A DNA stretch of 64,000 nt, from positions 1,054,003-1,118,002 of the forward strand of contig NZ_LNAL01000006.1 in assembly GCF_001483135.1 (NCBI RefSeq). Reading direction: 5' to 3'. Under the pieces are notes generated by a model. It ran no database searches. It was not told the DNA's origin and worked only from the letters and a program-made list of their open reading frames with translations. Below are positions 322 to 62,916 of this stretch, piece after piece (positions within the stretch are counted from its first letter, which is position 1; every line of letters starts with the position of its first letter). The position numbers and the translations under genes are program-made. The stretch comes from Solirubrum puertoriconensis. GTDB lineage: Bacteria > Bacteroidota > Bacteroidia > Cytophagales > Hymenobacteraceae.

Positions 322-706
322 AGTGTAACGAGTATAGTTGAGTAATGAGCACTTAAAGTACAAGAATCTGGCAATATTTCAAGGTTGTGCTTGTGTTCGC
401 TCAACACAAACCAAGCCAGTAACCGACACTGATTGTGGTAGAGGTTATTGGTTGCTGACAGCCAACTTGTTATTCTAGGTGGTAGTGAGCTTCGCAACTT
501 CAGCTTTGGATGCAGCCGCGAGTACTTATTGGTGAAGCAGGCAGGGCTTCGCCGGAGTCGCTCAGGATGAAATTACCTCAGCCCTAGGTCCTGAACCTGT
601 GGGAGCAGGACAACAGGAGTGCTAATACCCGATTACACTTTCCTTTTACTATCGTATAGCTTTGTCTGAATCTTTCGGGCCGCTGGCCTGTTAAGGAAGG
701 CTGTCG
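322..706. other. intergenic region with mutS2 promoter and possible degenerate repeat
   Basis: This 385-base gap separates the divergent hydrolase and mutS2. I see no convincing gene; the short open frames have no family features. At 557-571 lies cgctcaggatgaaa, which resembles the CATCCTGAGCG core of an interspersed repeat I associate with this group of bacteria, but only one degenerate copy is visible. One CCTAGG palindrome is at 583. The right end holds the probable mutS2 promoter. Confidence 0.4.
657..664 (+). promoter_or_regulatory. probable -7 promoter element of mutS2
   Basis: TAGCTTTG matches the Bacteroidota -7 consensus TAnnTTTG exactly. It lies 42 bases before the GTG at 707, which predicts transcription from about 670. 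No clear -33 TTG is present at the expected distance, so this is a motif match only. Confidence 0.5.
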
Positions 707-3181
707 GTGCCGAGCGCCATGGCCTTTACATCTGACTACGGACTACTCAGTACCCAATACCATTTGATTTACCCGCAAACATTCGAGCAGAAGATTGGCT
801 TTCAGCAAGTGCGCGAGCTACTTGCCGAGCTGTGCCTCAGCGCCCTAGGTCGGAACTACGTGCAGAAAATGCAGTTTCAGCCAAGAGCCGACGAGCTGAA
901 GAAGCTGTTGCTGCAAACCGACGAGTTTCGGCAGCTGCTGCACAGCGGCGCCGACTTCCCTAGCCAATTTTACCACGATGTAACCCCGCACCTGCTGCGG
1001 GCGCAGCTGCCCGGCGCGTTTCTAGAGGTTTCGGCTTTTTACGAGCTGAAAATGTCGCTGCGTACCATTCGGCAGGCGCTGACATTCTTTACGCAGGCTC
1101 CGGAGGGAGCGTACCCCACGCTGCGCTTGCTCGGTATTGGCGTACAAGCCGACCGCAACCTGCTCGCCGCCATGGATAAAGTGGTGGACGACGAAGGCCA
1201 CGTGCGCGACGATGCCTCGCCCTTGCTGCGCCAGCTGCGGCAGGAGCTCATCAACCGCCAAGGCATTTTGCGCCGCCAAATTGCCGACGTGCTGCGCAAG
1301 GCCCGCTCCGAAGGCTGGACGCCCGAAGGCGCCGAACCCACCATTCGGGGTGGCCGCTTGGTGCTGCCCATAGTGGCCGAGCACAAGCGCCGCATCAAGG
1401 GCCTGATCCACGACGAATCGGCCACGGGCCAGACTGTGTACATCGAGCCCGAGTCGGTGTTCGAGCTGAACAACGATATCAAGGACCTAGAGAATGCCTG
1501 GCACCGCGAACTGGTGCGCATTCTCACGGCCCTTACCGATCAGCTGCGCCCGCACATTCCGGACCTGCGCCGCGCGTACCATTTCCTAGGTCTGCTCGAC
1601 TTCATTCGGGCCAAGGCCCGCTTTGCGCAGCAGCTCGAAGCCACGCTACCCAAGCTCAGCTCGCGCCCCTTGCTGAACTGGAAAGCCGCGCGGCATCCGT
1701 TGCTGTACCTCAATTTTAAGGAGCAGGGCCGCGAGGTGGTGCCCTTAGATCTGGAGCTCAACCCCGAGCAGCGCATCCTGGTAATTTCAGGCCCGAACGC
1801 CGGCGGTAAGTCGGTGGCCATGAAAACGGTAGGCTTGGTGCAGTACATGCTGCAGTGCGGCCTGCTAATTCCGGTAGAAGACGGCTCCGAAGCCGGCGTA
1901 TTCGACGACATTTTCCTGGACATCGGCGATGAGCAAAGCCTAGAAAACGACTTGAGCACGTACTCCTCGCACCTCACGCACATGAAGCAGTTCTTGTTGC
2001 TGGCCAACAAGCGCAGCCTGGTGCTCATCGACGAGTTTGGTACCGGCACCGAGCCCGTGCTGGGCGGCGCCATTGCCGAAGCGGTGCTGAGCGAGCTGAA
2101 CCGCGTGCGTGCGTTTGGCGTCATCACCACGCACTACACCAACCTGAAGAACCTGGCCGAGCGCACGCCGGGCCTCGTGAACGGTGCCATGCGCTACGAC
2201 CCCAAGCACCTGCAGCCGCTCTACCGTTTGGAAATTGGCAAGCCGGGCTCGTCGTTCGCCTTGGAAATTGCCCGCAAAATTGGCTTGCCCAAGAACATTG
2301 TAGAGCGGGCTTCGCAGCTGGTGGGCAAAGAGAAAGTGCGCTACGACCGCCTGCTCGAAGAGCTCGAAGCCGAAAAAGCCCAGCTTGAAAAGCGCAGCGC
2401 GGAGGCCGAGAAAAACGAGCGCCGCATGAAAAAGGCCGCGCAGGAGTATCAGGACCTGAAGAACCACCTCGAGGAAACCAAGCAGGAGGTAATTCGCGAA
2501 GCCAAGCAAAAGGCCAAGCTGTTGCTGAAGGATACCAACGCGCAAATCGAAGCTACCATCAGCGAAATCCGGACGGCGCAAGCCGAAAAAGAGCAAACCA
2601 AGGCGGCTCGCCAGAAGCTCGATGCCTTTGTGCAGACGGAGCTGAAGGTGGAAGCACCCAAGCCCCGCGCCCACCGCGAAGCAGCCGACCCCAACGGCCT
2701 CAAGCCCGGCGACAAGGTAGCCCTGATAGGGCAGGAGGGCCACGGCGAGTTGGTGAGCGTGAAGGGAAAAACCGCTGAGGTGCTGTTTGGAGGACTGAAA
2801 ACCTTGGTGAAGGTGAATCAGCTGGAAAAACTGACGCGCTCCGAAATTCGGGAACGGGAGAAAGAAGCTGCGCGCAAAGCACCAGCCACCGAAGCCCGAG
2901 CTACGGGCGGAATGGACGTTACGGGCCGCATGGCTGGCTTTAGCACCACCCTCGACCTACGTGGCGAGCGGGCTGAAGACGCGCTACAGCGCATCATGAA
3001 CTACGTTGACGATGCCGTGATGCTGGGCGTGCCCGAGCTTAAGTTTATCCACGGACGGGGCAACGGCGTGCTGCGCCAAGTGGTGCGCGACTACCTGCGC
3101 TCGGTACGAGCCGTTGCCAGCGTGGCCGATGAGCACGCCGACCGCGGCGGCGACGGGGTAACCGTGGCGGTACTGAAATAG
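707..3181 (+). CDS. mutS2: endonuclease MutS2
   Basis: MutS2 is a MutS-family ATPase that suppresses homologous recombination and, in Bacillus, also rescues collided ribosomes. The 824-residue product has the full layout: N-terminal clamp/lever helices, an ABC-type ATPase with the Walker A GPNAGGKS near residue 362 and Walker B LVLIDEFGTGTEP near 440, a long charged coiled coil (about 530-650), a KOW-like segment, and a C-terminal Smr domain with LDLRGERAEDAL and HGRGNGVLR (about 745-824) that supplies the nuclease activity. The mismatch-recognition domain of MutS1 is absent, as expected. The GTG at 707 has a purine-rich AAGGAAGG six bases upstream; an in-frame ATG at 719 is the alternative start, and the conserved alignment begins only near LIYPQTFEQK. 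Monocistronic, ended by the hairpin at 3194. Confidence 0.96.
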   Translation: MPSAMAFTSDYGLLSTQYHLIYPQTFEQKIGFQQVRELLAELCLSALGRNYVQKMQFQPRADELKKLLLQTDEFRQLLHSGADFPSQFYHDVTPHLLRAQLPGAFLEVSAFYELKMSLRTIRQALTFFTQAPEGAYPTLRLLGIGVQADRNLLAAMDKVVDDEGHVRDDASPLLRQLRQELINRQGILRRQIADVLRKARSEGWTPEGAEPTIRGGRLVLPIVAEHKRRIKGLIHDESATGQTVYIEPESVFELNNDIKDLENAWHRELVRILTALTDQLRPHIPDLRRAYHFLGLLDFIRAKARFAQQLEATLPKLSSRPLLNWKAARHPLLYLNFKEQGREVVPLDLELNPEQRILVISGPNAGGKSVAMKTVGLVQYMLQCGLLIPVEDGSEAGVFDDIFLDIGDEQSLENDLSTYSSHLTHMKQFLLLANKRSLVLIDEFGTGTEPVLGGAIAEAVLSELNRVRAFGVITTHYTNLKNLAERTPGLVNGAMRYDPKHLQPLYRLEIGKPGSSFALEIARKIGLPKNIVERASQLVGKEKVRYDRLLEELEAEKAQLEKRSAEAEKNERRMKKAAQEYQDLKNHLEETKQEVIREAKQKAKLLLKDTNAQIEATISEIRTAQAEKEQTKAARQKLDAFVQTELKVEAPKPRAHREAADPNGLKPGDKVALIGQEGHGELVSVKGKTAEVLFGGLKTLVKVNQLEKLTRSEIREREKEAARKAPATEARATGGMDVTGRMAGFSTTLDLRGERAEDALQRIMNYVDDAVMLGVPELKFIHGRGNGVLRQVVRDYLRSVRAVASVADEHADRGGDGVTVAVLK

Positions 3182-3193
3182 CGTACCCCGCAA

Positions 3194-3239
3194 CAAGCAA
3201 AAGAGGCTGCTCCGGTACCGGAGCAGCCTCTTTTGCTTG
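3194..3239. terminator. bidirectional terminator, 46-bp perfect palindrome
   Basis: The 46 bases are a perfect palindrome centred on GGTACC (between 3216 and 3217), with A-rich and T-rich tracts inside the outer stem. It lies between the convergent mutS2 (+) and the FN3 protein gene (-), so it can stop transcription from both sides. Confidence 0.85.
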
Positions 3240-3253
3240 TGCTTACCTAGGGT

Positions 3254-4231
3254 TTACTTCTTGGCCTTAGGAGCTACCCGGTTTTTGGAGTCGGTAATCA
3301 TCGGAACAGCTTCCGATACCGACGTGCCTTTGGCGTTGGTAGAGGAAACGCGCACGTAGTACACCGTAGCGGGCTCCAGGTTGCTGAGCGTGATAACGTG
3401 GTCGGTGGTGATGTCGGCGTTGGTAATTACGCTGCCTAGGTTGGAACTAGTGCCGTACTCCACTTTGGTGCTGCCAGGATTGATGGTGTTGAAGTGCACC
3501 GTAAAGCCTGTTTTGCCAATCTCCGTCGGAACGGGCGTGCCAACAATGCTGGGCATGCCGCCGTCAACCTCCATGTCCGATTTCAGACGGGGCAGCAGCT
3601 GGTAGCCTGTGGGCGTGCCGCTGGGCGAGTGCTGCCCGATGATGCCGATCAGATCAAATTTGCCAGAGGGCAACGCTTTTCCTACAATGCCATCGGGGCC
3701 AACCGATGCGCTGTTGATGCGCACAATGGCACCTGCCTGGCCGTTGATGAGGTAGTTCATGTTGCCAGCTATTTCGCTGGTGAGCGGGTTGCCGCCGGTA
3801 GTGGTAAGCGTGTTCACGCCCACGATCTTTACCAAACGCCCCTCGTTGGCTTCGTTGTATACCGAAGTCAGCGACGCTGCCGGCACCTCAATAGTGCGCA
3901 GCCGGCGCTTCGAAGCCAACTTTGTTACAGCCGTAACGGGGTCTACCTCGAGCAAGCCGTTGTAGTTTTTGAGGGTGCCCGAGAGCTGTACACTGTCGCC
4001 AGCAACAAGCGTAGCAAACTCCGGAATCTTATTGGTAAAGGCCGCAATGCCCGCGTCTTTATCCTGGATATAGCGTAACGAGCCCAACTCTGCGCCGTTG
4101 ACTACGACGCCGCGAATGGTAACCGAAGCCCCTGGGCCAGCCGCACGGGCTGCCGAAATGGAGACTACCGATTGAGCAGCGGCGAAAGTGCTGCTCCCAA
4201 GCAGCAATGCCAAAAGCGTAAACGTTTTCAT
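3254..4231 (-). CDS. secreted protein with OB-fold-like N-terminal part and C-terminal fibronectin type III domain
   Basis: The 325-residue product starts at the ATG at 4231 with a clear signal peptide (MKTFTLLALLLG...AAAQS, cleavage after about residue 20). An upstream in-frame extension to 4288 would bury this signal and is rejected. Residues about 25-220 carry a beta-rich module of the sort seen in DUF5689/YhcR OB-fold proteins (RGVVVNG, YIQDKDAGIAAF, GDSVQLSGTLKNYNGLLEV). Residues about 228-310 form a fibronectin type III domain (KVEYGTS, ITLSNLEPATVYYVRVSSTNAKG). The C-terminus is basic (RVAPKAKK), and no type IX sorting domain is evident. It is likely exported to the periplasm or cell surface. 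No catalytic residues are recognised; a binding role is only a guess. Confidence 0.75.
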   Translation of the reverse strand: MKTFTLLALLLGSSTFAAAQSVVSISAARAAGPGASVTIRGVVVNGAELGSLRYIQDKDAGIAAFTNKIPEFATLVAGDSVQLSGTLKNYNGLLEVDPVTAVTKLASKRRLRTIEVPAASLTSVYNEANEGRLVKIVGVNTLTTTGGNPLTSEIAGNMNYLINGQAGAIVRINSASVGPDGIVGKALPSGKFDLIGIIGQHSPSGTPTGYQLLPRLKSDMEVDGGMPSIVGTPVPTEIGKTGFTVHFNTINPGSTKVEYGTSSNLGSVITNADITTDHVITLSNLEPATVYYVRVSSTNAKGTSVSEAVPMITDSKNRVAPKAKK

Positions 4232-4397
4232 GTGCGGTTGCAATAGGACTATTGAGAGTTTGGCAAAATGAGGGTTAAATATCCACACTTTCTCTTACAG
4301 TTGCATCTATATGCCCCTCAGAACATTCAAATTACGTGTTGCTGAAGCGGTATTTGGCCTTCGCCTAAGCTTCACCCGAACCCCAAGACTATTCGAT

Positions 4398-5423
4398 CTA
4401 GAGAATGTTCACTTCGGGGTGCAGCTCGATGCCGAACTTTTCGCGCACCGATGCAATGATTTGCTGGGCTAGGGCATGCACCTCGGATCCGTTGGCGCCG
4501 CCTAGGTTCACGAGTACCAAGGCTTGTTTATCATGCACGCCATAGGTGCCGGCGCGGTGCCCTTTCCAGCCGCACTGCTCAATCAGCCAGCCCGCAGGTA
4601 CCTTTACGCCGCCGGGCACGGGGTAACCGGGCATATTGGGGTTGTCGGCCTTCAGGCTCTCGTACTTCTGTTGCGAAACCTCGGGGTTTTTGAAGAAGGA
4701 ACCGGCGTTGCCGATTTCCTTGGGGTCGGGCAGTTTGCTGCGACGGATGCTGATGACGGCCTGGCTAACCTGCTGCGGCGTAGGCTCGTCGGTTACGCCC
4801 ATGTCTTCGAGCGTCGAGCGAATGGCGCCGTACGACACGTTGGGCTGGTAGCGGCGGTGCAGGCGCAGCGCCACGCTCGTTACGACGTACTGGTTTTTGA
4901 GCGGGCCTTTAAACACCGATTCGCGGTAGCCAAAACCGCATTCTTCGCGGGTAAAGCGGCGTAGTTGGCCGGTAGCAATTTCCATGGCTTCGAGGTGGTC
5001 GAAGGCATCTTTCAGCTCCACACCGTAGGCACCAATGTTTTGCAGCGGGGCCGCGCCCACGGTACCGGGTATCAACGATAGATTCTCGATGCCGGCCAAG
5101 CCTTCGCCCAGGGCAAACTCCACCAAGCCGTGCCACGATTCGCCAGCACCGGCGTGCACCAAGGCCGTTTCGCCATCGGCCTCAATCGTGCTTTCGAGCC
5201 CCCGAATTTCGTTTTTTAACACAACGCCGTCGAAGTCGCGGGTAAACAGCAGGTTGGAGCCACCGCCCAGCACCAGTTTATCGGCCTGCTGCACTTCGGG
5301 TAGTTGCAACAGTTCGCGGAGTTCCTCTACGTTGCCAAACGCCGCAAAGTAGCGGGCCTTCACATCGATACCGAAAGTGTTGTAGGGAAGAAGCGAAACG
5401 TGGTGCTGTAACTGAGCCGACAT
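4398..5423 (-). CDS. murB: UDP-N-acetylenolpyruvoylglucosamine reductase MurB
   Basis: MurB reduces UDP-GlcNAc-enolpyruvate to UDP-MurNAc with NADPH and FAD in cytoplasmic peptidoglycan synthesis. The 341-residue protein has the FAD-binding VLGGGSNLLF near the N-terminus, LSLIPGTVGAAP and NIGAYGVEL, the YRESVFKG segment with the catalytic arginine, the catalytic serine in GSFFKNP (Ser242), and the C-terminal glutamate in HPEVNIL (Glu337). Length and the extra loop fit the type I (E. coli-like) enzyme. Start chosen at 5423 (MSAQLQHH); a frame extension to 5522 runs through the upstream terminator and is rejected. A perfect -7 box (TACCTTTG on the minus strand) lies 22 bases upstream, giving a very short leader. 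Confidence 0.96.
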   Translation of the reverse strand: MSAQLQHHVSLLPYNTFGIDVKARYFAAFGNVEELRELLQLPEVQQADKLVLGGGSNLLFTRDFDGVVLKNEIRGLESTIEADGETALVHAGAGESWHGLVEFALGEGLAGIENLSLIPGTVGAAPLQNIGAYGVELKDAFDHLEAMEIATGQLRRFTREECGFGYRESVFKGPLKNQYVVTSVALRLHRRYQPNVSYGAIRSTLEDMGVTDEPTPQQVSQAVISIRRSKLPDPKEIGNAGSFFKNPEVSQQKYESLKADNPNMPGYPVPGGVKVPAGWLIEQCGWKGHRAGTYGVHDKQALVLVNLGGANGSEVHALAQQIIASVREKFGIELHPEVNIL

Positions 5424-5445
5424 ACGGAGTAAGAGTAATGCGGCG

Positions 5446-5453
5446 CAAAGGTA
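5446..5453 (-). promoter_or_regulatory. -7 promoter element of murB
   Basis: The plus strand reads CAAAGGTA, which is TACCTTTG on the minus strand, an exact TAnnTTTG match. It ends 22 bases before the murB ATG. A TTG lies further upstream but nearer than the usual spacing, so only the -7 element is claimed. Confidence 0.6.
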
Positions 5454-5484
5454 GTGTACACCGCTTGGCAACTGGCGAAAACAG

Positions 5485-5516
5485 CAGCGCCCGCAACCAA
5501 ATTGGTGCGGGCGCTG
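5485..5516 (-). terminator. terminator of the FHS transporter gene
   Basis: CAGCGCCCGCA (5485) pairs with TGCGGGCGCTG (ending 5516), and ACCA/TGGT extends the stem inside with a one-base bulge. On the minus strand the stem is followed by CTGTTTTCG. It lies 25 bases beyond the stop codon of the transporter gene and before the murB promoter. Confidence 0.75.
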
Positions 5517-5540
5517 CCCCAAGAACGTGCTGCTAGGTGC

Positions 5541-6950
5541 TTAGCGTACGCGGTAGCCGCTGAGCGAGTAGTACAGCAGGTATGCGTAGCACAACGCCGG
5601 CAGCAGGAAAGCCACGCGCAAGCCGCCGCCGTAGGTAGCAAGCAGGCCCATCAACAGAGGCACGATAGCACCGCCTACAATGGCCATAATCAGGTACGAC
5701 GAGCCCTGCTTAGTGAACGGACCTAGGCCTTTGATGGCCAGAGGGAAAATAACCGGCCACATAATTGAGTTCATCAACCCGCACAGCACGATCAGCCACA
5801 GGGCCGTTTCGCCCTGGGTGGCAATGGAGGCCAGCACGAAGGCTACCGCAGCGGCGCACACAGCAACCAAAGCCTTCCGGTCGTTGATGCGGGTGAGCAG
5901 CGGAATGCCAACTACCCGGCCAACCAACGAGCCAAACCAGTACGATGCCACCATTACGGCCCCTACAGCTTTGGTGAAACCGGCTGTGGTGTCGATGGGT
6001 GCAGGCGGCTGCCCCAGTAGTACGGCAATGAAGTTGGTGGCCACATTGAGGCCGCGTACCAAGCTTTGGGTAAAGGCACTTAGCTGCGTAATGCCTTGCG
6101 CCTCGCCGTAACGGATGAGGAAGGAGCCAAGACCCACCTCAACGCCTACGTACAAGAAAATAGCAACGACACCTAGGACGAGGTGCCGGAAATCAAGGGC
6201 CGAACGCCGGCCACTTGCCGCTGCCAAATCATTCGTGCCGCTTTCTTCATCAGCTTGCATGCCTTCGATCTCGGGCAGCTTAAGCATGAAGAACACGCCG
6301 GCTAGTACCGCTAGAAAGATAGCCAGGCCCACGTACGGAGCCTTTACCAGTGTAGCTTCTTCCGCTAGGCGTTGCGCCTCGGGCAGCGAGGCCAAGCGGG
6401 CTTTCAGTGCTACCGAGCCACCAAACAGCAGCATGCCACCCAACAGCGGCGAAAGTGTACCCCCAAAGTTGTTGGCCACGCCTACGATGCTTACGCGGCT
6501 GGCGGCGCGACTAGCCGGGCCCAGTACCGAAACGTAGGGGTTAGCCGCTACTTGCAGCAGCGTTACGCCGGCGCCCAGTACGCTCAGGCCAAGCAAAAAC
6601 ACGCCAAAAGTGCGCGTATTGGCAGCTGGCACAAACAGGAGCGCACCAGCGGCCATCACCAGCAAGCCAACTACAATGCCACGTTTGTAGCCCAGGCGCT
6701 CAAGCACTCGGCCCGCTGGCAACGACATAAGAAAATAAGCCCCAAAAAACGCGAACTGTACCAGCGACGACTGTAAATCAGTTAGCTGGCATACGTCCTT
6801 GAGGTAGGGCATCAGCACGTCGTTGAAGTTCGTGACGGCCCCAAACAGGAAGAACAGCGAAGTCATGGCCGCCATGGGCAGCGCGTAGCTACGCGCGGTG
6901 GCTGGGCCAGTAGTGGTAGTTGAAGTAGCCTGCGAAACGGGTGTCGCCAT
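5541..6950 (-). CDS. sugar MFS transporter, FHS (FucP/GluP) family
   Basis: A 469-residue, 12-helix major facilitator of the fucose/glucose/galactose:H+ symporter group. Family features are the N-terminal FFLFGAVTNFNDVLMPYLKD, the loop GRVLERLGYKRGIVVG between helices 2 and 3, AANPYVSVLGP, and the long cytoplasmic loop in the middle (about residues 225-255, rich in E, D and S). It should import a hexose across the inner membrane with protons; the exact sugar cannot be read from sequence. Start chosen at the ATG at 6950 (MATPVSQ); an in-frame start at 7004 adds a poorly conserved leader. It is transcribed alone, with its own terminator at 5485-5516. Confidence 0.9.
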   Translation of the reverse strand: MATPVSQATSTTTTGPATARSYALPMAAMTSLFFLFGAVTNFNDVLMPYLKDVCQLTDLQSSLVQFAFFGAYFLMSLPAGRVLERLGYKRGIVVGLLVMAAGALLFVPAANTRTFGVFLLGLSVLGAGVTLLQVAANPYVSVLGPASRAASRVSIVGVANNFGGTLSPLLGGMLLFGGSVALKARLASLPEAQRLAEEATLVKAPYVGLAIFLAVLAGVFFMLKLPEIEGMQADEESGTNDLAAASGRRSALDFRHLVLGVVAIFLYVGVEVGLGSFLIRYGEAQGITQLSAFTQSLVRGLNVATNFIAVLLGQPPAPIDTTAGFTKAVGAVMVASYWFGSLVGRVVGIPLLTRINDRKALVAVCAAAVAFVLASIATQGETALWLIVLCGLMNSIMWPVIFPLAIKGLGPFTKQGSSYLIMAIVGGAIVPLLMGLLATYGGGLRVAFLLPALCYAYLLYYSLSGYRVR

Positions 6951-7029
6951 GGATGATTGGGAGCTGACGGGAAAAGGAGGCTTTAAAGATAGGAAAAGGA
7001 GCACGCGGCGCCGCGCCCCTCGAGCTGGG

Positions 7030-8049: not shown

Positions 8050-8199
8050 AGCTCCGATAAGATAGAGCAGAAGAGGCAAAGTGACACTTGGTTGGGCTCG
8101 CGCGAGCTGCCTAGGTACTGAGTATTGATTGCCACCGGATGCCGCACCATTTTAGCATTTTGGTAGTTTCATTAGCCTAGAACTCCCGCCAAACAGCCG

Positions 8200-55058: not shown

Positions 55059-55075
55059 TTCAGCCCTAGGCTTAT

Positions 55076-55115
55076 AAACAGAAAGGCCGCCTCAGTTGAG
55101 GCGGCCTTTCTGTTT
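55076..55115. terminator. bidirectional terminator of deaD
   Basis: Nineteen-base perfect arms (55076-55094 and 55097-55115) with a two-base loop; AAACAG and CTGTTT at the ends. A CCTAGG lies just before it at 55064. Confidence 0.88.
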
Positions 55116-55180
55116 ATTGGGCTTCTCTGTTGCTAGGGGCAGATTCGAGCTGCCAAAAAGCCCAATGAAGCTATGCGGCA

Positions 55181-55654
55181 CTACTTAGAGGTTTCGCGCA
55201 GGCTGCGAATCTGCTGCTGGGCTTCCTTGATGCCGTTGTATTGCTTTTCAACAATCGACTTGATTTCGTTCGGCAATCCTTCCGACTGAATCGCCTTCTG
55301 GAATGCTTTTACGGCATAGTCTTCGCCACGCTCGCATTCGTCCAGGATGGCTTTGCGGTCGTTGCCGGTCACTACCGATTTGATGTTGATCCAAGCACGG
55401 TGCGCAGTGCCAACTACCGAGTCAAGCTTGTCTTCCTTGGCTTCGGCGGGGCGCATATTCAGGTTATGCATCGCGTTTTCCAGCTCGGTGAGGTAGCCGT
55501 CGCGCTGCACAGCATATTCCTTGAATACCTGTTTAAGGTCCTGATCTTTCACATCGGTAAGCGCCTCGGAGTAGCCACGCTCACCGTCTTTCAGGGTCTC
55601 TACCAGTTCGTTCAGAACGCCGCGGAGGGCGCTGTTGTGGTTGTCAGTAGCCAT
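55181..55654 (-). CDS. PA2169 family four-helix-bundle protein (DUF2383)
   Basis: The 157-residue protein is helical throughout, with the family segments LNELVETLKDGERGYSEAL, QRDGYLTELENAM and AHRAWINIKSVVTGNDRKAIL (in part), and ECERGEDYAVKAFQKAI. It belongs to the ferritin-like PA2169/DUF2383 group; Glu and His positions on the helices could hold a di-metal site, but the family has no assigned activity. It is often stress-induced in environmental bacteria. Start at 55654 (MATDNHNSAL). Confidence 0.85.
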   Translation of the reverse strand: MATDNHNSALRGVLNELVETLKDGERGYSEALTDVKDQDLKQVFKEYAVQRDGYLTELENAMHNLNMRPAEAKEDKLDSVVGTAHRAWINIKSVVTGNDRKAILDECERGEDYAVKAFQKAIQSEGLPNEIKSIVEKQYNGIKEAQQQIRSLRETSK

Positions 55655-55807
55655 GATGTTTTGGATGTAAGGGTTAGAGCAGATGCAGGAGTATCTCTCT
55701 ACTGACCGCAAGCGCGTAAGGTTGCGCTACAACCCTAGGTGGCAGCTACTGCTAGCTGCCAAACACCCAGTAAATCATTAAGCTAAGTATCCTTTTCCCA
55801 ATAGCTG

Positions 55808-57055
55808 TTACTCTTGAGCAGAGGCGGCGATGGCGCGGCCAGCAAGGTAGCCGGTAGTCCAGGCCGCCTGGAAGTTGAACCCGCCGGTGATGCCATCAAT
55901 ATCAAGCACTTCGCCGGCGAAGTGCAGGCCCGGTACGCGCCGGCTCTCCATGGTTTTCAGGTCGACTTCACCTAGGGGCACGCCGCCGCACGTTACAAAC
56001 TCTTCCTTGAAAGTGGTCTTGCCGCGCACCTGCAGAGGGGTGCGCAACAGCAACTCAATCAGGCGGTTTTGCAGCTTGCCCGCTAGCTCGCTCCAGCGTA
56101 CCTCGCTGCCTATGCCGACCTGCTCTACCATGTTGCGCCAGAGGCGTTGCGGCAACCCAAACAGCGGGTTAGCTGCCACGATCTTCTTGCCGTTTTCGGT
56201 ACGGAAGGTTTGCAGCCACTGGCGCATGCTTTCCTCGGTGTAGGTTGGCACCCAACTAATCAGGGCTGTGCCGGTGTATTGCAGCTCGTGCAAACGGCGC
56301 GCCCCCCAAGCCGACAGCTTGAGCACCGATGGGCCACTAACCCCCCAGTGCGTTACAAGTAGTGGCCCTTCGTATTCAAGCTTTTCGCCGGCCAGCACCA
56401 CGCGGGCATGCGGAACGCTAACGCCCATCAGCTCCTTAAGGGGCGAATTAGGCACGTTGAAGGTAAACAACGAAGGTACCGGCTCGCAGATGCTGTGCCC
56501 TAGGTGGCGCAGCCAATCATAGCCCGCCGACTTAGGGTTGCCACCGGTAGCTACCAGCAGCTTCTGCACGCGCAGCTCTTGGTTGCCGCTCAGGTGTAAG
56601 CAAAAACCACCGCCCGAAAGCGGCTCAATGCGCTCGGCTGCGGTGCTTGTGAGCACCCGCACGCCAGCGCGTTGGGCCGCCTGCTCGAGGCACCGCGCAA
56701 CGGTTTCCGACGAATCGGTGGTCGGGAACATACGGCCGTCGGCTTCGGTTTTTAGGCGCACGCCGCGCCGCTCAAACCACTGTACTGTGTCCTGCGCACC
56801 GAATTGCTTGAACGGCTCCTTCAAGTGCTTGCCGCCTCGGGGGTAAAACTGTACCAGTTGGGCTGGCGAAAAGCAGTTGTGCGTAACGTTGCAGCGCCCG
56901 CCACCCGAAACGCGCACCTTGCTCAGCAGCTTGGTGGTTTTTTCGAGCAGCACTACGTTGAGAGCAGGGTTGGCTTCGGCGCAGGCAATAGCTCCGAAAA
57001 AGCCCGCCGCACCGCCGCCCAGTACGGCTACATTGGCAGCAAAAGAGTTTTTCAC
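55808..57055 (-). CDS. NAD(P)/FAD-dependent oxidoreductase, BaiN/HI0933 family
   Basis: The 415-residue flavoprotein has the Rossmann motif AVLGGGAAGFFGAIACAEANP, KVRVSGGGRCNVTHNC, RGVRLKTEADGRMFP, LLVATGGNPKSAG, and the terminal GLHFAGEVLDIDGITGGFNFQ (in part), all typical of the family. Known members include BaiN, a bile-acid reductase of gut bacteria, but the general substrate is unclear. It starts with GTG at 57055; a perfect -7 box ends five bases upstream, so the mRNA is probably leaderless. A distant paralogue lies at 30339-31580. Confidence 0.9.
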   Translation of the reverse strand: MKNSFAANVAVLGGGAAGFFGAIACAEANPALNVVLLEKTTKLLSKVRVSGGGRCNVTHNCFSPAQLVQFYPRGGKHLKEPFKQFGAQDTVQWFERRGVRLKTEADGRMFPTTDSSETVARCLEQAAQRAGVRVLTSTAAERIEPLSGGGFCLHLSGNQELRVQKLLVATGGNPKSAGYDWLRHLGHSICEPVPSLFTFNVPNSPLKELMGVSVPHARVVLAGEKLEYEGPLLVTHWGVSGPSVLKLSAWGARRLHELQYTGTALISWVPTYTEESMRQWLQTFRTENGKKIVAANPLFGLPQRLWRNMVEQVGIGSEVRWSELAGKLQNRLIELLLRTPLQVRGKTTFKEEFVTCGGVPLGEVDLKTMESRRVPGLHFAGEVLDIDGITGGFNFQAAWTTGYLAGRAIAASAQE

Positions 57056-57060
57056 AAGTG

Positions 57061-57068
57061 CAAAGGTA
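57061..57068 (-). promoter_or_regulatory. -7 promoter element, leaderless context
   Basis: CAAAGGTA on the plus strand is TACCTTTG on the minus strand; five bases (CACTT) separate it from the GTG at 57055. The layout repeats that at 26481-26488. Confidence 0.6.
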
Positions 57069-57113
57069 CAGCTGCTCCTCGGTTGAGGGCGCTGGCCAGT
57101 TAAGCCTGCGGCG

Positions 57114-57944
57114 CTAGCAAAAGTTCAGCGCCGCAATGGGCTCGGGGTGTAGGAACTGGTAGGAGAGAGTTTGCTGCAGCTTGGCCGTGTCAATGAGTTT
57201 GCCACTGCGCTCATCACGTGCGTTGAAGCTGGGTGGCTGCAGCCCTAGGTGCGTAGCAGCCGCGGTGTAGAACACCATACGTGAAGGGTGCTCAGGAGCA
57301 CAAACATTCAGCGTTTGACCCCACGTATTTAGCTCGATGACGGCTTTAATCACGCCCACGGCATCATCGAGGTGCAGCATGTTGACGGGGGCGTTAGGTT
57401 GGGGCACATCGGTACGGCCCGCTAGAAAGCGGCCGGGCGCACGGCCGGGGCCCATCAGGCCACCCAGGCGAAGCACAGTGGTTTGACACGCTTGGCCAGC
57501 TTGCCGAAACAGGGCCTCGGCCTGTAGCAAGTGGCTTTCGGCGTCAGCGGTTGCCGCAGCATCGGCTTCCCTCATGGTGCGGGACTCGTCGGGGTACACG
57601 CCGGTTGAGCTTACGAACACTACGTGCTGCACGGGCGAACTACCTAGGGCGACTACTACCGGAGCCAGGGCCGCCGTGTAAGCTGCGCGGTCGGTGGCAG
57701 TGCGCGAAGGCGGCACATTGAGCACTAGCACTTGCGCACCGGCTAGCAGCGGAGCTACCTCGGCAGGCTGGGTGGCAGTGCTGAGCTGCAACAGATGAGG
57801 GCGAATGCCAGCTGCTTCAAGCCGAGGTAGTTTTTCGGGAGTGGTGGTGCTACCGGCAACCTGGTAGTCTGCTTGGGCGAGGGCACTACCTAAGGGCAGG
57901 CCCAGCCAGCCGCAACCGAGCACGGCAATGGAGGTGGTGTTCAT
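57114..57944 (-). CDS. NAD(P)-binding SDR/epimerase-like protein (YeeZ type)
   Basis: The 276-residue protein starts with the Rossmann motif IAVLGCGWLGLPLGSALAQ, followed by VQHVVFVSSTGVYPDESRTM and VLRLGGLMGPGRAP, the features of atypical extended SDR proteins such as YeeZ. These act on nucleotide sugars or unknown substrates. The usual YxxxK appears weakened: STGVYPDE has the Tyr, but the expected Lys is not clear. Start at 57944 (MNTTSIAV); cytoplasmic. Divergent from the next SDR gene. Confidence 0.82.
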   Translation of the reverse strand: MNTTSIAVLGCGWLGLPLGSALAQADYQVAGSTTTPEKLPRLEAAGIRPHLLQLSTATQPAEVAPLLAGAQVLVLNVPPSRTATDRAAYTAALAPVVVALGSSPVQHVVFVSSTGVYPDESRTMREADAAATADAESHLLQAEALFRQAGQACQTTVLRLGGLMGPGRAPGRFLAGRTDVPQPNAPVNMLHLDDAVGVIKAVIELNTWGQTLNVCAPEHPSRMVFYTAAATHLGLQPPSFNARDERSGKLIDTAKLQQTLSYQFLHPEPIAALNFC

Positions 57945-58077
57945 AAGTAGCGGCAAGTAACAACCTAGGTCGTCAGCAGCCTAGCAAGTTTTTTGGGTTA
58001 AAAATACGCGGCATGCATACAAAAGCGGGCAATTGCCTTTCTTGCAGCATTGCATTTGCCACCCCAACTTTTTTACC

Positions 58078-58950
58078 ATGCCATCACCCTACGCCCAACC
58101 CATGCTGCGCGACGGCGCCCTCGAAGGAAAAACCATCATTGTAACCGGCGGCGGCACTGGCCTGGGCCGGGCCATGACGACGTATTTCCTCCAGCTCGGG
58201 GCCAACGTCGTTATCAGCTCGCGCAAACTCGATGTGCTGGAAACCACCGCCAACGAACTGCGCGAGAAAACCCACGGCAAAGTGCTGGCTGTGCAGTGCG
58301 ATGTGCGCAAGTACGATGAGGTAGAAGCCATGATTGCGCGCACGGTGCAGGAGTTCGGGCGCGTGGATGTGCTGGTAAACAACGCCGCCGGCAACTTCAT
58401 CAGCCCCACCGAACGCCTCACCCACAAAGCCTTCGACGTAATCGTTGACATTGTGTTGAAGGGTACTTACAACTGCACCCTGGCAATTGGCAAGCATTGG
58501 ATTGAGCAGCAGCAAACGGGCACCATCCTGAACATCGTAACCACTTATGCCTCGGTAGGCTCGGCCTACGTTGTACCCTCGGCGGCGGCCAAAGCAGGCG
58601 TGCTGGCTATTACCCGTTCGCTGGCGGTGGAATGGGCCAAGTACGGCATCCGTTCGGTAGCTATTGCGCCAGGCCCGTTCCCGACGGAAGGTGCCTGGAG
58701 CCGCCTGTTCCCCGAGCCGTTGGCTTCCAAGCTCGATCCGGCCGCGTCGGTGCCGCTCAAGCGCGTAGGCGAGCACCAGGAACTGGCCAACTTGGCGGCT
58801 TACCTGGTGTCTGATTTTGCGGCTTACGTCAACGGTGAAGTCATTACCATCGACGGGGGCGAGTGGCTCAACGGCGCTGGCGAGTTCAACAAGCTGGAGC
58901 TGCTGACCCCGCAGATGTGGGACCAGATCGAGAAGACCATGCGCCGCTAA
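58078..58950 (+). CDS. SDR family oxidoreductase, 2,4-dienoyl-CoA reductase-like
   Basis: The 290-residue enzyme has the classical TGGGTGLG cofactor motif (about 23-30), NNAAGNF (about 102), and SAAAKAGVLAITRSLAVEWAK in the active-site helix; the missing classical YxxxK and the presence of SAAAKAG are features of peroxisomal-type 2,4-dienoyl-CoA reductases, used in breakdown of unsaturated fatty acids. C-terminal LTPQMWDQIEKTMRR is unusually long. It starts at 58078; a frame extension to 58033 has no support. It is followed by a repeat element that includes its terminator. Confidence 0.88.
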   Translation: MPSPYAQPMLRDGALEGKTIIVTGGGTGLGRAMTTYFLQLGANVVISSRKLDVLETTANELREKTHGKVLAVQCDVRKYDEVEAMIARTVQEFGRVDVLVNNAAGNFISPTERLTHKAFDVIVDIVLKGTYNCTLAIGKHWIEQQQTGTILNIVTTYASVGSAYVVPSAAAKAGVLAITRSLAVEWAKYGIRSVAIAPGPFPTEGAWSRLFPEPLASKLDPAASVPLKRVGEHQELANLAAYLVSDFAAYVNGEVITIDGGEWLNGAGEFNKLELLTPQMWDQIEKTMRR

Positions 58951-58957
58951 GCAGCAA

Positions 58958-59204
58958 CGGTTCCCCCAGTTGTCATTGCGAGCAAAGCGAAGCAATCGGT
59001 CCTGGGCAGAGTACCGCCGTTCAGCTAGCACTAACCGAAAACCGCACCGCCCGAGCCCCGGAAGCAGGATTCGGGCGGTGCGGTTTTGAACCTACTAGGT
59101 TCTCGCTAAGTGCTAGGTGAAAAGTCGTGTTTTGCGCAGGACTGCTTGACGGCGCTTAATCTGCGGAATGTCGTGCCTCCTCGCAATGACAGCTAGGGGA
59201 ACGG
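58958..59204. repeat. MITE/REP-like element with terminal inverted repeats
   Basis: The 25-base ends (58958-58982 and 59180-59204) are inverted copies that match at 22 of 25 positions and contain TGTCATTGCGAG. The left end continues CAAAGCGAAGCAATC, a core seen in small interspersed repeats of many bacteria. No coding sequence lies inside. It fills almost the whole gap between the SDR gene and the DUF1571 gene and encloses the SDR terminator. Direct flanking duplications are not evident. Confidence 0.6.
59038..59087. terminator. terminator of the SDR gene inside the repeat
   Basis: AAAACCGCACCGCCCGA (59038-59054) pairs perfectly with TCGGGCGGTGCGGTTTT (59071-59087) with a 16-base loop. Confidence 0.85.
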
Positions 59205-59207
59205 TAG

Positions 59208-60083
59208 TTAAAACTTGTAGTCCTTATAGTCTTTCGTGAATTCGGCAGCGGCGATGGGCTGGTTGGCCACTACCTGCGAAAACTCGAACGACTCGAACAG
59301 GCCTTTGTCATCCCACACGGCCACGGCCAGTGGGAGCATGCTTTTTTGCTCCACGCACAAAATGGTGCGGCGGCCGTAGGCATTGGGTAGCTGAAGCACG
59401 CGTCCCGCGGGTAGCGGCGTGGTGTAATCTACTTTGTTGCGCTCCACAATGCGATACTCGCCGCAGCCGTAGCGCTCAGCAATTTTGCCCACGGTTTCGC
59501 CGGCCGAGGTTTTGTGGCTTATGTAGCGGAACTGCGGAAAGTCGGAGCGAAGCAGGTAGCACGGGCGCCCCTGAATGGTGGTGTCGCCGGCGTAGCGGAA
59601 CGAGCGGCGGTAGGCATCGGAGCGTTGCGGAGCGGTGCGAATGAGGTCGGCAATGGTACCGTAACCGGCATCGGTTACCGCGTGGTGCTGCGTGCGGCGC
59701 ATCAGCGTGCCGTTTGGATCGAGGCTGAGCGTGACGTACGGAAACCGGTTGGGGTACACCCACGCGTCGCCGTCGTTCTGGCCCTGCACCCACAGCACCT
59801 CTATGCCGTTATTGTTGCGCACATACACCCGCAGCGGCGAGCTGGCCACTTTCATTTGCGACTGCACTTGCTGGTATTTGCCGCCGTGCCGCTCGCTGGC
59901 TTTTACGTTGCAGCGCAACGTTTGCAAGCGGCTGATTGCTGCCGAAAGCCGGGTGAGCAGATTATCGATGGAAGGAGCATCGGCGCTGATGCCAGCCCTA
60001 GGTGGTACGGCAGGCGCTGGTGAAGGAGCAACGGGTGCCAGAAGCGAAACCACAACCGGCAACCAGTTTAACGAAAACAACAT
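59208..60083 (-). CDS. secreted DUF1571-like protein with internal LysM-type insertion
   Basis: The 291-residue product has a signal peptide (LNWLPVVVSLLAPVAPSPA) and a LolA-like beta domain of the DUF1571 type (LQTLRCNVKASERHGGKYQQ, VWVYPNRF-type strands, GTIADLIRTAP). Into this is inserted, at about 190-245, a segment ISHKTSAGETVGKIAERYG with YRIVERN and LPAGRVLQLP, the pattern of a LysM peptidoglycan-binding domain. The DUF1571 core then resumes (ILCVEQKSMLPLAVAVWDDKG) and ends in DYKF. It probably sits in the periplasm, with LysM binding cell wall. Start at 60083. The insertion is unusual and deserves structural comparison. Confidence 0.7.
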   Translation of the reverse strand: MLFSLNWLPVVVSLLAPVAPSPAPAVPPRAGISADAPSIDNLLTRLSAAISRLQTLRCNVKASERHGGKYQQVQSQMKVASSPLRVYVRNNNGIEVLWVQGQNDGDAWVYPNRFPYVTLSLDPNGTLMRRTQHHAVTDAGYGTIADLIRTAPQRSDAYRRSFRYAGDTTIQGRPCYLLRSDFPQFRYISHKTSAGETVGKIAERYGCGEYRIVERNKVDYTTPLPAGRVLQLPNAYGRRTILCVEQKSMLPLAVAVWDDKGLFESFEFSQVVANQPIAAAEFTKDYKDYKF

Positions 60084-60141
60084 GTGAGCAACGGTAAGGT
60101 GGAAACCGGATACAGCACGGGTGCGCAGTAGCAATTAAGCG

Positions 60142-60441
60142 TTAGTTGAGGCTGATTTTGGGCAAGCGCGAAGCCGAGCTGTCGAACACAAACAGTTCAT
60201 CGATTTCAATTTGCTTCAGAAATCGGTAAAGCGGAAACTGTTCTACCACAGCCCGCACGGTTTCGGCGTTGGGCCCCTGCATGGTAACCCACCCACGCGA
60301 ACGGTCGGCGCTAATGGCGTACGATACCACGATGTTCTCCTCGATGAGGTTGTTGATGAAGGCCCGGTGGCGCGGGATGAGTGCCACAAATTCTTCGTCG
60401 AAGAAATCGGGTAAGCGCAACGACACTACGTAAATGCCCAT
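60142..60441 (-). CDS. small ferredoxin-fold protein (muconolactone isomerase/YCII-like)
   Basis: The 99-residue product has the alternation of strand and helix of a dimeric alpha/beta barrel: IYVVSLRLPDFFDEEFVALIP, RAFINNLIEENIVVSYAIS, RGWVTMQGPNAETVRAVVEQF and LFVFDS. YCII-like and muconolactone isomerase-like proteins share this fold; key catalytic residues cannot be recognised. It lies 58 bases beyond the start of the DUF1571 gene on the same strand, so they may be one unit. Confidence 0.5.
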   Translation of the reverse strand: MGIYVVSLRLPDFFDEEFVALIPRHRAFINNLIEENIVVSYAISADRSRGWVTMQGPNAETVRAVVEQFPLYRFLKQIEIDELFVFDSSASRLPKISLN

Positions 60442-60554
60442 GGATAAATCGGCAACTGAGCCTTGCCGCGTAAACGCCGCTCTGAAATGGAAAGTTGGGC
60501 TAAACCGGCCTCGGGTAGCAACTTTTTTCGATGGCAGCCGAACAAGCGGGCACT

Positions 60555-61322
60555 ATGCATTTTGCTGTAATCACTCCTACGCACAACCGCGCCGCCTACC
60601 TGCCCGAAGCCGTGCAGAGCGTACGCGCCAGCGTGCTGGCCCCGTTACCTGAGGCCAGCTACGAGCACCTAATTCTCGACAACGCCTGTTCCGACGATAC
60701 AGCTCGCTTTCTGCGCGAGGCTACCGGCTGGGAGGGCCCAGCCATCCGGAGCTGGCAGCACTCCGGTACCAACGCCATGGCTCCGGGTGCCGCGCGGCAC
60801 TTGCTTATTGGCCACGCCCAGCCCGAAAGCTGGCTCGTTCCGCTCGACGACGACGACCTAATGCTGCAGCGCACGCTCTACCATTACGGCGCTCAAATTG
60901 AGGCTAATGCAGGCAAGCAGTGGTTTGTAACTGACTTTCTGCGGGTAGATGAAGAGCGGCGCTACCTACCCGGCGAGGATTACTACACCTGGCGGTTCGA
61001 CACCCCCGCCGACATGCTGCGCGCCATTTTCAAGGCCGAGCACTTCATCCAGGGCAACGTGTGTTTCAGCCACGCGCTCTACCGCGAAGTGGGTGGCTAC
61101 GATGAGCAGCTGCGCATGGCCGAAGACCTTGATTTGTACGTGCGCTTTCTGCTGGCCAACCACTTACCCGTGCTTTGCCCGCACATCAGCCATTTGCACC
61201 GCTTCCACAGCTCCAACGTGAGCATTGGGGTAGATGCCGCGCGCCACGGCGCCGACTTGCAGGTGATTTACCGCAAATACGCCAATCAGTTGCAAGCCCT
61301 AGGTGTTCCGGAGCCGGAGTAG
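60555..61322 (+). CDS. glycosyltransferase family 2
   Basis: The 255-residue GT-A enzyme has the N-terminal ITPTHNRAAYLPEAVQSV, the DXD-like metal site in WLVPLDDDDLML (about 95), and FSHALYREVGGYDEQLRMAEDLDLYVR (in part; acidic base region). No membrane helix is present, so it is a cytoplasmic or peripheral transferase for an envelope sugar; donor and acceptor are unknown. An in-frame ATG at 60531 is an alternative start, but MHFAVITPT at 60555 begins the fold directly. Confidence 0.88.
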   Translation: MHFAVITPTHNRAAYLPEAVQSVRASVLAPLPEASYEHLILDNACSDDTARFLREATGWEGPAIRSWQHSGTNAMAPGAARHLLIGHAQPESWLVPLDDDDLMLQRTLYHYGAQIEANAGKQWFVTDFLRVDEERRYLPGEDYYTWRFDTPADMLRAIFKAEHFIQGNVCFSHALYREVGGYDEQLRMAEDLDLYVRFLLANHLPVLCPHISHLHRFHSSNVSIGVDAARHGADLQVIYRKYANQLQALGVPEPE

Positions 61323-61611
61323 TACCTAGGGAGCTACCGCTTTCCCAAATTCCTGCCTGGGCAATATGCCCAACGCTTGGGTTGTCAAGTCGAATACCGA
61401 GGCCACATCGGCACCCAGTACTAGGTGCTGTGCGTGCCCGGATAATAGGTCATTGAGGTAAAGCAATAAGGTTCAGATGTCGGGGGCAGTAATGAGTGCA
61501 CCAGAGCCCATACGTGCGTGAGCATACTGGCATGCACCGCAGCGTCTTCGGATGATGGCGTTATGACCTAGTGTATGGTATGCGCTCTGGCGCGAGCCCG
61601 CTTTGCTTGTG

Positions 61612-62916
61612 CTACTGCTGTTGCGCCTGACGGTAAATGGTACCACCTTTCATCACCCATTGCACCTGCCGCAGCGCCTGCACGTCCTGTGTCGGGTCGC
61701 CGGCTACGGCTACAAGGTCGGCAAGCAGCGTGGGAGCTACGCGGCCTCGGTCGGGGAGGTGAAACAGCTTGGCGTTGCCGCTGGTAGCACCCCGCAGCAC
61801 CTCTAGCGGGGTAAAGCCGTGCTCGCGCACCAGCAACTCTAGCTCGCGCACGTTATCGCCGTGGGCAAACACGCCTACGTCGCCGCCAATGGCCAGCGCC
61901 ACTCCGGCTTTGCGCGCTGCTTGCATGCTCTGGCGTTTGTGGGCAATGCGCTCGGGCTCGGGGGTTTGGCCTTTGCGCCAGCCGCGGTATTGCGAAATGG
62001 CGTCGCCGGCGGCCACGGTGGGGCACAGCGCAACGCCGCGCTGGCGCATCAGCTTAAACACTTCGGCCGTACCATCGTCACCGTGCTCTATGGTTTCGAC
62101 GCCGGCCAATGTTGCCCTGCGCATGCCTTCGGGGGTTGAGGCGTGCGCCACTACCGGCTTACCTAGGGAGCGGGCAGTGACTACCAGCAGGTTAAGCTCG
62201 TCTTGCGAAAACGTGGGTACCGAAGGGCTGGTGGCCGAGAGGCGGTAATCGGCGTACACTTTAACGATGTCGGCGCCTTTGCCAATTTGCTCGCGCACGG
62301 CCCGCACAATTTCATCGGGGCCGCTTACCTCTTGTGCGCCTTGGGGTACCTCCACATCAACCGAAAGCTTGGGGCCATAACAGCCCGTAGCTACTATGGC
62401 TCGGGTGGCAATCAGCAACCTAGGGCCCGGTATCAGGCCCTGCTCAATGGCTTGCTTCAGGCCAACATCGGCGTAGTCGGCGCCTTCGGTGCCTAGGTCG
62501 CGGGCGGTGGTAAAGCCCGCTTGCAGCGTACGGGCTGCGTGTGCGGTGGCCCGTGCCACGCGCAATGCCTGCGACTCAAGCAGTACCTGATCGTTCCAGG
62601 TAGTTTCGTTGTAAGGGTGCAGCAACATGTGCGAGTGCCCTTCGATAAGTCCTGGTAGCAACGTGAGGCCCGGCAACGCCACGGTGCGCGCCCCGGCCGG
62701 CGTTGGCAACTGATTGGCCGGCCCCACAGCCCTGATTCGTTCTCCCTCTACCAACACCGCCCACCCGGGGTGCAACGCTTCGCCATCGAACACTGCCGCC
62801 GGTTGCAACACAATAAGCTGCGGAGTAGAAGTGGGCGTTTGGGCCTTGGCGTGCCCGAAGTGCAGCAGCAAAGCCGCTCCGACAACCAGCTTGCCTACGT
62901 GCGAACAAAGAATCAT
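61612..62916 (-). CDS. secreted amidohydrolase family protein (imidazolonepropionase-like)
   Basis: The 434-residue metal-dependent hydrolase has a signal peptide (LVVGAALLLHFGHAKAQ) and the amidohydrolase motifs GLIEGHSHM (HxH), IVKVYADY (bridging Lys), VVAHAST, ETIEHGDDG and ALAIGGDVG, all in order. Secreted relatives act as prolidase-like or Xaa-peptidase-type carboxypeptidases; the substrate is not evident. It ends with QRQAQQQ-type low complexity. Divergent from the metallophosphoesterase gene; the gap between is strongly AT-rich. Confidence 0.9.
   Translation of the reverse strand: MILCSHVGKLVVGAALLLHFGHAKAQTPTSTPQLIVLQPAAVFDGEALHPGWAVLVEGERIRAVGPANQLPTPAGARTVALPGLTLLPGLIEGHSHMLLHPYNETTWNDQVLLESQALRVARATAHAARTLQAGFTTARDLGTEGADYADVGLKQAIEQGLIPGPRLLIATRAIVATGCYGPKLSVDVEVPQGAQEVSGPDEIVRAVREQIGKGADIVKVYADYRLSATSPSVPTFSQDELNLLVVTARSLGKPVVAHASTPEGMRRATLAGVETIEHGDDGTAEVFKLMRQRGVALCPTVAAGDAISQYRGWRKGQTPEPERIAHKRQSMQAARKAGVALAIGGDVGVFAHGDNVRELELLVREHGFTPLEVLRGATSGNAKLFHLPDRGRVAPTLLADLVAVAGDPTQDVQALRQVQWVMKGGTIYRQAQQQ

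Follow-up and report, generated by a model that had tools for sequence, protein, structure and literature searches.

HIP1 (GCGATCGC), the highly iterated palindrome of cyanobacteria, occurs in genes as well as in spacers, and its purpose is still disputed, partly because it is so widespread in that group. In Elhai's account (PMC4390886), HIP1 and the alternate HIPs reach about one copy per kilobase, are replaced or lost in some relatives and have been linked to methyltransferases and to repair. The uptake sequences of Pasteurellaceae and Neisseriaceae (USS and DUS) and Chi are further short words; in the comparison given in PMC1939737, uptake sequences and HIP1 show shoulders of near-miss forms when measured against base composition, Chi has 1,008 copies in Escherichia coli K12 and GCCTAGGC, as its table reads, is absent from that genome. 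Repair enzymes may also shift word abundance, as described for Vsr/Dcm very short patch repair and CTAG-containing words in enterobacteria (PMC5337935).

Here we describe a word, ACCTAGGS (S = G or C; either strand), that is present in thousands of copies in a few Hymenobacter and scarce in their close relatives, a contrast suggestive of cell machinery that reads or produces it. The word resembles HIP1 and the alternate HIPs in its density, in its patchy presence among relatives and in a proposed link to repair. Unlike HIP1, it is mainly an asymmetric octamer, occurs in Bacteroidota, has no general excess of one-mismatch forms and has no matching methyltransferase in the five families searched here. 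With USS and DUS it shares a short asymmetric sequence, equal strands and a higher density between genes, but it lacks the near-miss shoulder, shows short-range avoidance rather than a spacing of one site per kilobase, and has a 6-bp palindromic core. Like Chi, it is a short asymmetric word spread over the chromosome, although it is much denser than the Chi sites of E. coli K12 and shows no replication-strand bias in our coarse test. We found no description of CCTAGG or of the octamer, whether as a palindrome, in methylomes or in Hymenobacter, in the open-licence literature; the first-pass annotation of this DNA likewise knew of none in this group.

The window, the whole 64-kb stretch of DNA that was analysed, contains 91 copies of CCTAGG (Table 1), where Markov models of orders 1, 2 and 3 predict 13.7, 12.6 and 19.7, and the word ranks first among all 4,096 hexamers under each of these models. 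The earlier estimate of about 90 copies against about 20 expected is therefore accurate at third order. The maximal-order expectation is much higher, at 75, because CCTAG and CTAGG are themselves generated by the site. CTAGG is preceded by C 91 times and by the other three bases together 29 times, a 3.1-fold preference in the direction claimed before, although short of the four-fold size then given. The genome that contains the window (G000; 4,804,721 bases in 8 contigs) carries 6,212 copies of CCTAGG. GGATCC, with 136 copies in the whole genome, was rejected as a control word as it is itself avoided (in 584 kb of G000, composition predicts 186 copies and 13 are present), and Markov models and relatives were used as the yardstick instead. 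With 6,212 copies of CCTAGG and 4,831 of ACCTAGGS in 4.8 Mb, the genome-wide overrepresentation is confirmed, and the word is grossly over-represented in the sense used for HIPs. The first-pass annotation would have abandoned its claim at a genome count close to the third-order Markov expectation or if codon preference sufficed; the count is far higher and codon preference fails.

The bulk of the excess needs an A on one side of the core and S on the other, and a simple palindrome was rejected as the enriched word. The octamer accounts for 456 of the 583 CCTAGG sites in 436.5 kb of G000, and for 218/272 and 218/255 in the related genomes G005 and G006; in the window, ACCTAGG can be read on one strand at 79 of the 91 sites, and 70 sites match the full octamer. 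Relative to base composition, the flank contexts among G000 sites score 1.05 for ACCTAGGA/TCCTAGGT, 0.85 for ACCTAGGT and 0.04-0.24 when A is lacking, and ranges among sites of 0.43-0.87 for ACCTAGGT and 0.04-0.35 for SCCTAGGS were obtained. The earlier term "highly iterated palindrome" thus keeps its iteration and its palindromic core and loses the palindromic word. Sites without A (54 of 583 in G000) are about as many as the genome's own Markov models allow. A weaker excess of non-octamer flanks also exists, since SCCTAGGS is several times denser in high-copy genomes than in low-copy relatives (0.13-0.24 versus 0.014-0.067 per kb, both strands). One-mismatch neighbours of ACCTAGG show no general excess over a third-order Markov model (O/E 0-1.8), with the exception of CCCTAGG and GCCTAGG, in which the opposite side of the same palindromic sites is read. 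Over all contigs of G000 the octamer is found 2,359 times forward and 2,472 times in reverse, and no strand or replication polarity was seen, with no GC-skew trend in the sampled pieces, a coarse test as the origin was not located.

Table 1. Positions of the word in the window and of other features mentioned in the text
Feature	Sequence	Span	Strand	Details
All CCTAGG (91)	window	583..62497		word count
ACCTAGGS (31)	window	3245..62425	+	first base: 3245, 5721, 9704, 10079, 14384, 15026, 18268, 19112, 21866, 25331, 25634, 27714, 28587, 28921, 31993, 33187, 33907, 34839, 36279, 42078, 43999, 44367, 48325, 49447, 49798, 50853, 55970, 57642, 61324, 62161, 62418
ACCTAGGS (39)	window	582..62498	- (SCCTAGGT on +)	first + base: 582, 843, 3434, 4500, 8109, 10684, 12773, 13430, 14417, 15883, 19637, 20227, 22224, 23219, 25922, 26896, 27138, 28294, 30747, 31191, 31293, 31338, 36385, 37357, 38887, 39421, 40484, 45156, 45587, 46804, 47215, 49996, 52280, 55733, 56498, 57243, 59996, 61297, 62491
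CCTAGG with other flanks (21; 9 with ACCTAGG on one strand)	window	1585..57969		first base of CCTAGG: 1585, 6172, 7181, 10531, 14596, 23073, 23709, 24806, 25316, 28264, 28520, 30338, 39584, 40030, 46754, 47818, 50565, 52317, 54323, 55065, 57964
Terminator-like hairpin, CCTAGG (14418) at apex	window	14405..14435		sequence inspection
Hairpin, sites 25316 and 25332 paired together in stem	window	25307..25346		sequence inspection
Protein with DACNG, DACNH and DAC domains	window	28345..29934
PD-(D/E)XK protein	window	37201..40257
UvrD-like helicase	window	46111..49536
Likely plasmid	L048 (G000 contig C4)	1..12518
N6/N4 methyltransferase, 297 aa	L048	5493..6386
Vsr endonuclease gene (PF03852, E 4.8e-32)	L016 (G006)	1498..1935		match at C1:3010308-3010520

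The host of the window is very probably a Hymenobacter, and among named genomes scanned for RecQ the nearest was Hymenobacter edaphi. Eight congeners fall into two groups. CCTAGG is abundant in G000, G005 (5,678) and G006 (5,325), at 1.2-1.4 per kb, and 21-50 times rarer in G001 (123), G002 (249), G003 (163), G004 (201) and G007 (220). The 50 further genomes of a draw of 58 from the genus, family and order, which included the eight congeners, have 5-807 copies. In a phylum-wide draw of 395 genomes, which included G000 without G005 and G006, the other 394 have at most 266 copies of ACCTAGGS (the maximum in G236). A scan of named genomes for RecQ yielded 80 loci, 19 of them from Hymenobacter, and 14 of these 19 genomes were counted whole. 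Hymenobacter setariae Fur1 and strain BT559 carry 4,541 and 4,613 copies of ACCTAGGS, and the other 12 carry 28-109; the remaining five (L185, L192, L193, L197 and L199) were judged by their RecQ loci only, from which the octamer is absent.

In the RecQ tree, H. setariae and BT559 form one clade (support 1.0) within a clade (1.0) that also holds low-copy members, and G000, G005 and G006 are placed in a different clade (1.0) together with G001-G004 and G007; several inner nodes of this tree are weak (0.18-0.67). The RecQ sites of H. setariae and BT559 do not coincide with those of the window. The simplest reading is that the word arose twice, in two Hymenobacter lineages; alternatively, there may have been a single old gain followed by many losses. 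In a tree built from 44,176 aligned columns, high-copy and low-copy congeners part with support 1.0 and the closest partner of G000 is G006; in RecQ alone it is G005 (0.86), so that the order inside the high-copy group is less sure. In 22-kb loci of H. setariae and BT559, 54 of 72 CCTAGG sites have the A flank and 38 are ACCTAGGS, and the flank rule is thus looser in this second lineage than in the G000 group. Within a single genus, and apparently on two occasions, a HIP1-like phenomenon has been turned on; low-copy sisters serve as controls and the high-copy genomes include the named strains H. setariae Fur1 and BT559, which together make its origin, mechanism and reader testable.

Small contigs are poor in sites, with 3 ACCTAGGS and 6 CCTAGG in 52.5 kb where about 57 octamers are expected (L048 whole and 10-kb pieces L265-L268), and are taken to be plasmids or other recent DNA. 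Gene content was viewed, by eye, for L048, which has ORFs like a coupling protein, a relaxase and a replication protein and is likely a plasmid.

Gene context was analysed in 184 kb of G000 by simple ORF calling, with no gene finder. Predicted genes contain 171 of the 241 sites there, and 61 lie between genes. The genic sites are read as NNC-CTA-GGN (Leu-Gly) in 151 cases and as CCT-AGG (Pro-Arg) in 20, and none of the 171 falls in the TAG frame; the earlier observation that copies in genes are mostly Leu-Gly, with others in spacers, agrees with these counts. Density is 1.07 per kb in genes versus 2.5 between genes in G000, 1.03 versus 3.15 in G005 and 0.93 versus 3.15 in G006, and in each genome the highest density is that of convergent spacers (4.37, 3.24 and 3.31 per kb for G000, G005 and G006, the order kept below). 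Where the protein sequence offers Asn, Asp, His or Tyr followed by Leu-Gly, the hexamer is realised in 198/261, 201/288 and 151/268 cases (56-76%; 584-600 kb), against 1/52 and 2/51 in low-copy G001 and G003. The corresponding numbers for Pro-Arg are 71/528, 85/600 and 77/649, against 0/288 and 0/202 (0/490 together). The CTN Leu codon before Gly is CTA in 151 of 218 cases after a C-ending codon and in 26 of 178 otherwise.

Copies had also been placed at the apices of terminators. The copy at 14418 does sit at an apex, whereas those at 25316 and 25332 are paired in a stem and that at 10531 is part of a long loop. Perfect stems of 7 bp surround 7/201, 2/212 and 10/218 intergenic sites, with 12, 11 and 18 per 3,000 control positions, and hairpins therefore hold only a small part of the sites.

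Gain and loss of sites were followed in three-way alignments of G000, G005 and G006 (373,227 positions, 302,203 of them kept at a local identity of at least 0.78). On the G000 and G005 branches, the central G-to-A change that creates a site occurred at 11 of 65 filtered ACCTGGGS/SCCTGGGT opportunities, compared with 1/70 for SCCTGGGS, 1/56 for other flanks and 10/512 for [AGT]CTGGG (Fisher p = 2e-6 against 10/512 and 0.002 against 1/70); wider G-to-A controls gave 34/2,481 and 95/5,685. In the right flanks, the rate of gain is roughly tenfold that of controls. On the G006 branch the same change was seen at 2/23 sites with the right flanks and at 0/29, 1/25 and 3/224 controls. Among unfiltered one-step octamer gains in G000 and G005, 12 of 13 came from a transition at the centre and the remaining one from a change at the first base. 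Transversions into the centre numbered 0 in 154 opportunities on these branches, a count of little weight given the low transversion rates of the controls. From the low-copy genomes to G000, transversions into the site reached 6/59 and 2/20 against 13/853 and 1/443, counts that are pooled over five low-copy genomes, are not independent and span a long branch on which multiple steps are possible.

Octamers common to the other two genomes were kept at 173/226 in G000, 170/201 in G005 and 170/238 in G006, and octamers in general were retained at 65-67%. C-to-T or G-to-A changes destroyed sites at the second or fifth core base in 4/226, 4/201 and 1/238 cases. In a smaller alignment, the same change struck the C of other CTA words in 33/538, 39/569 and 31/526 cases, so that the rates at sites are lower by factors of about 3.5, 3.4 and 14. 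These two bases alone are clearly protected in G000 and G005, the first, sixth and central bases changing about like controls; in G006 all four outer core bases are protected. The two flanking bases of the octamer show no protection and change freely in the filtered alignment. An initial conservation control, xCTAGG (kept 8/86 versus 110/159 for sites), was discarded: words of this kind are often former sites that have decayed, which confounds the comparison. The three-way comparisons took its place. Faster gain together with some slower loss would fit weak selection, and the uneven protection of the core bases leaves room for repair bias.

G006 loses sites almost only through a central change of T:A to C:G (40/238, one-step), compared with central changes of any kind in 2/226 for G000 and 4/201 for G005. 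The change of CTTGG to CCTGG is also raised in G006, at 19/109 versus 5/96 and 2/89 in the other two high-copy genomes (7/185 pooled). Very short patch repair runs in the direction CTWGG to CCWGG. Among the three high-copy genomes, a match to Vsr (PF03852) was found only in G006, and low-copy G001 also has one. In G006 a PF00145 methyltransferase match lies about 10.7 kb from the Vsr gene. The erosion of the centre fits very short patch repair, which would explain the erosion and not the origin of the word. As with the known effect of Vsr/Dcm on CTAG, a repair enzyme may here shift the abundance of a CTAG word; the sign is as known in G006 and reversed in the two genomes that lack a Vsr match, G000 and G005. 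m5C methylation, with or without Vsr, was rejected as the maker of sites, as G000 and G005 have no PF00145 or PF03852 matches. G006 thus offers a natural experiment in which a Vsr gene is present and the same sites erode at their central base pair.

The spacing of coding sites was tested by shuffling which permitted codons carry a site (500 shuffles). Pairs 7-49 bp apart are deficient, with 12, 12 and 7 seen versus 29, 31 and 17 expected, and 0, 0 and 3 of the 500 shuffles were as low as seen. Deficits of up to 3 standard deviations persist to 200 bp, beyond which the picture is mixed: G006 is at or above expectation, and G000 is low again at 500-799 bp (137 versus 165). A permitted tripeptide is realised at a rate of 0.25-0.42 with another site within 150 bp, of 0.41-0.61 at 300-1000 bp and of 0.25-0.55 beyond 1000 bp (38-64 cases each). 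Realisation at 300-1000 bp is no lower than beyond, a pattern expected of local occupancy but not if a single site in each kilobase were enough. The avoidance has no sharp outer limit, and part of it may come from Leu-Gly-rich proteins.

Given these analyses, we tentatively favour ACCTAGGS, with its core CCTAGG, as a word under selection throughout the chromosome and recognised by a protein that binds or processes DNA sequence-specifically and is present in some Hymenobacter lineages only. The candidate reader, missing from relatives and perhaps acquired separately by the two lineages, would bind the ACCTAGGG duplex specifically, compared with SCCTAGGS. Each copy would give a small local benefit, with selection rather than biased repair as the force; site-creating mutations would be favoured where the protein sequence permits, chiefly the synonymous change of CTG to CTA in Leu-Gly, and site-breaking mutations would tend to be purged. 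The benefit would be partly redundant at short distance, most of all under 50 bp, as might be expected of a protein that occupies, bends or marks nearby DNA. The restriction to some lineages, the presence in two of them, the faster gain, the partial protection of the core, the short-range avoidance, the use of permitted tripeptides, the density between genes and the scarcity on small contigs all support a recognition word. Against it count the clear protection at only two core bases in G000 and G005, the unprotected flanks, the looser flank rule of the second lineage and the predominance of central transitions among gains, as repair or mutation bias would give; the losses in G006 indicate that the force can be overridden. 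We speculate further, in an extension that we consider unlikely, that a horizontally acquired protein reads the word about once per kilobase and either labels the chromosome as self or gives it shape, that selection recodes most of the best class of tripeptides, and that two Hymenobacter lineages independently gained the protein and rewrote their genomes.

Alternatively, and possible if somewhat doubtful in our view, the word may be made by biased mismatch repair or mutation. T:G in ACC(T:G)AGGS would be resolved to T:A, so that CCCAGG and CCTGGG become CCTAGG without any benefit, comparable to the repair model proposed by Elhai for HIP1. The central transitions, the dependence of gain on the octamer context and the high rate at which the best tripeptide class is realised would follow, and the flanks, as well as the outer and central core bases in G000 and G005, lack clear protection, as such a bias would leave them. 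G006, with its Vsr gene, runs the same base pair backwards and has the raised CTTGG to CCTGG change, which indicates that mismatch repair can move this site. A central bias leaves unexplained the protection of the second and fifth core bases in three genomes, and the mutual avoidance of sites within 50 bp and the pooled, long-branch transversions into the site also argue against it. Either selection on a recognition word or a bias in repair may be the mechanism. The best reading is a word that resembles HIP1 in behaviour and that a putative DNA-binding or repair system selects or makes; it is restricted to some lineages and probably arose twice.

A solitary methyltransferase that modifies the word, with the cell using the mark, had been suggested by the first-pass annotation and appears improbable; its two other suggestions, a repair bias and a protein that organises the chromosome, may both still hold. 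Among the cyanobacteria surveyed in PMC4390886, a genome that carries HIP1 or an alternate HIP as a rule also encodes a methyltransferase able to act on the word, with few HIP1 exceptions. Here, no methyltransferase common to G000, G005 and G006 scored above the cut-off in five Pfam families: PF00145 has two matches in G006 and none in the other two; PF01555 has one in G000, two in G006 and none in G005; PF07669 is above the cut-off in G006, has one match below it in G005 and none in G000; PF02384 has one in G005, two in G006 and none in G000; and PF02086 has none in the three. The asymmetry of the octamer also argues against such an enzyme. The sole G000 match, to PF01555, is encoded on the 12.5-kb plasmid-like contig that is poor in sites (Table 1). 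The analogy to HIP1 drawn earlier holds for behaviour (density per kilobase, presence in some lineages only, synonymous retention) and not for palindromy, and the methyltransferase link finds no support in the five families.

We give similarly little credence to a DNA uptake sequence, in which cells would favour the uptake of DNA that carries the word and transformation would spread it. About one octamer per kilobase, equal strands, a higher density between genes and near absence from the small-contig pieces would suit uptake, but one-mismatch forms are not in general excess, and realisation at 300-1000 bp is not below that beyond 1000 bp (a small class), though one site per fragment would do. 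Composition, codon preference or chance, with which the Leu-Gly copies would agree, are virtually excluded by the first rank among hexamers, the dependence of CTA on its context, the density between genes and the contrast with congeners.

A search for genes present in all three high-copy genomes and absent from the fetched pieces of low-copy genomes returned 31 of 170 ORFs and no usable candidate for a reader; many of the 31 seem restricted to high-copy genomes because the low-copy pieces end there. GGCAATG (enriched 3.2-5.5 times in low-copy and 1.9-2.6 times in high-copy genomes) and TGCGCGA (3.2-4.7 times in all eight) were rejected as replacement words in the low-copy relatives, as both have codon-periodic flanks.

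Other words are avoided in these genomes. In the fetched regions of all eight congeners GATC is rare, and GCGATC/GATCGC, the heart of HIP1, is nearly absent (3 copies in 584 kb of G000 versus 372 by composition, and 0-6 versus 80-399 in the others). CTCGAG is strongly depleted in the five low-copy congeners (1-7 copies versus 40-69 by composition) and is near expectation in G000, G005 and G006 (160-243 versus 186-199), which perhaps reflects a history of XhoI-like restriction in one clade. The window itself encodes a protein with DACNG, DACNH and DAC domains, as well as a PD-(D/E)XK protein and a UvrD-like helicase, which we take to resemble AddB and AddA, respectively (Table 1).
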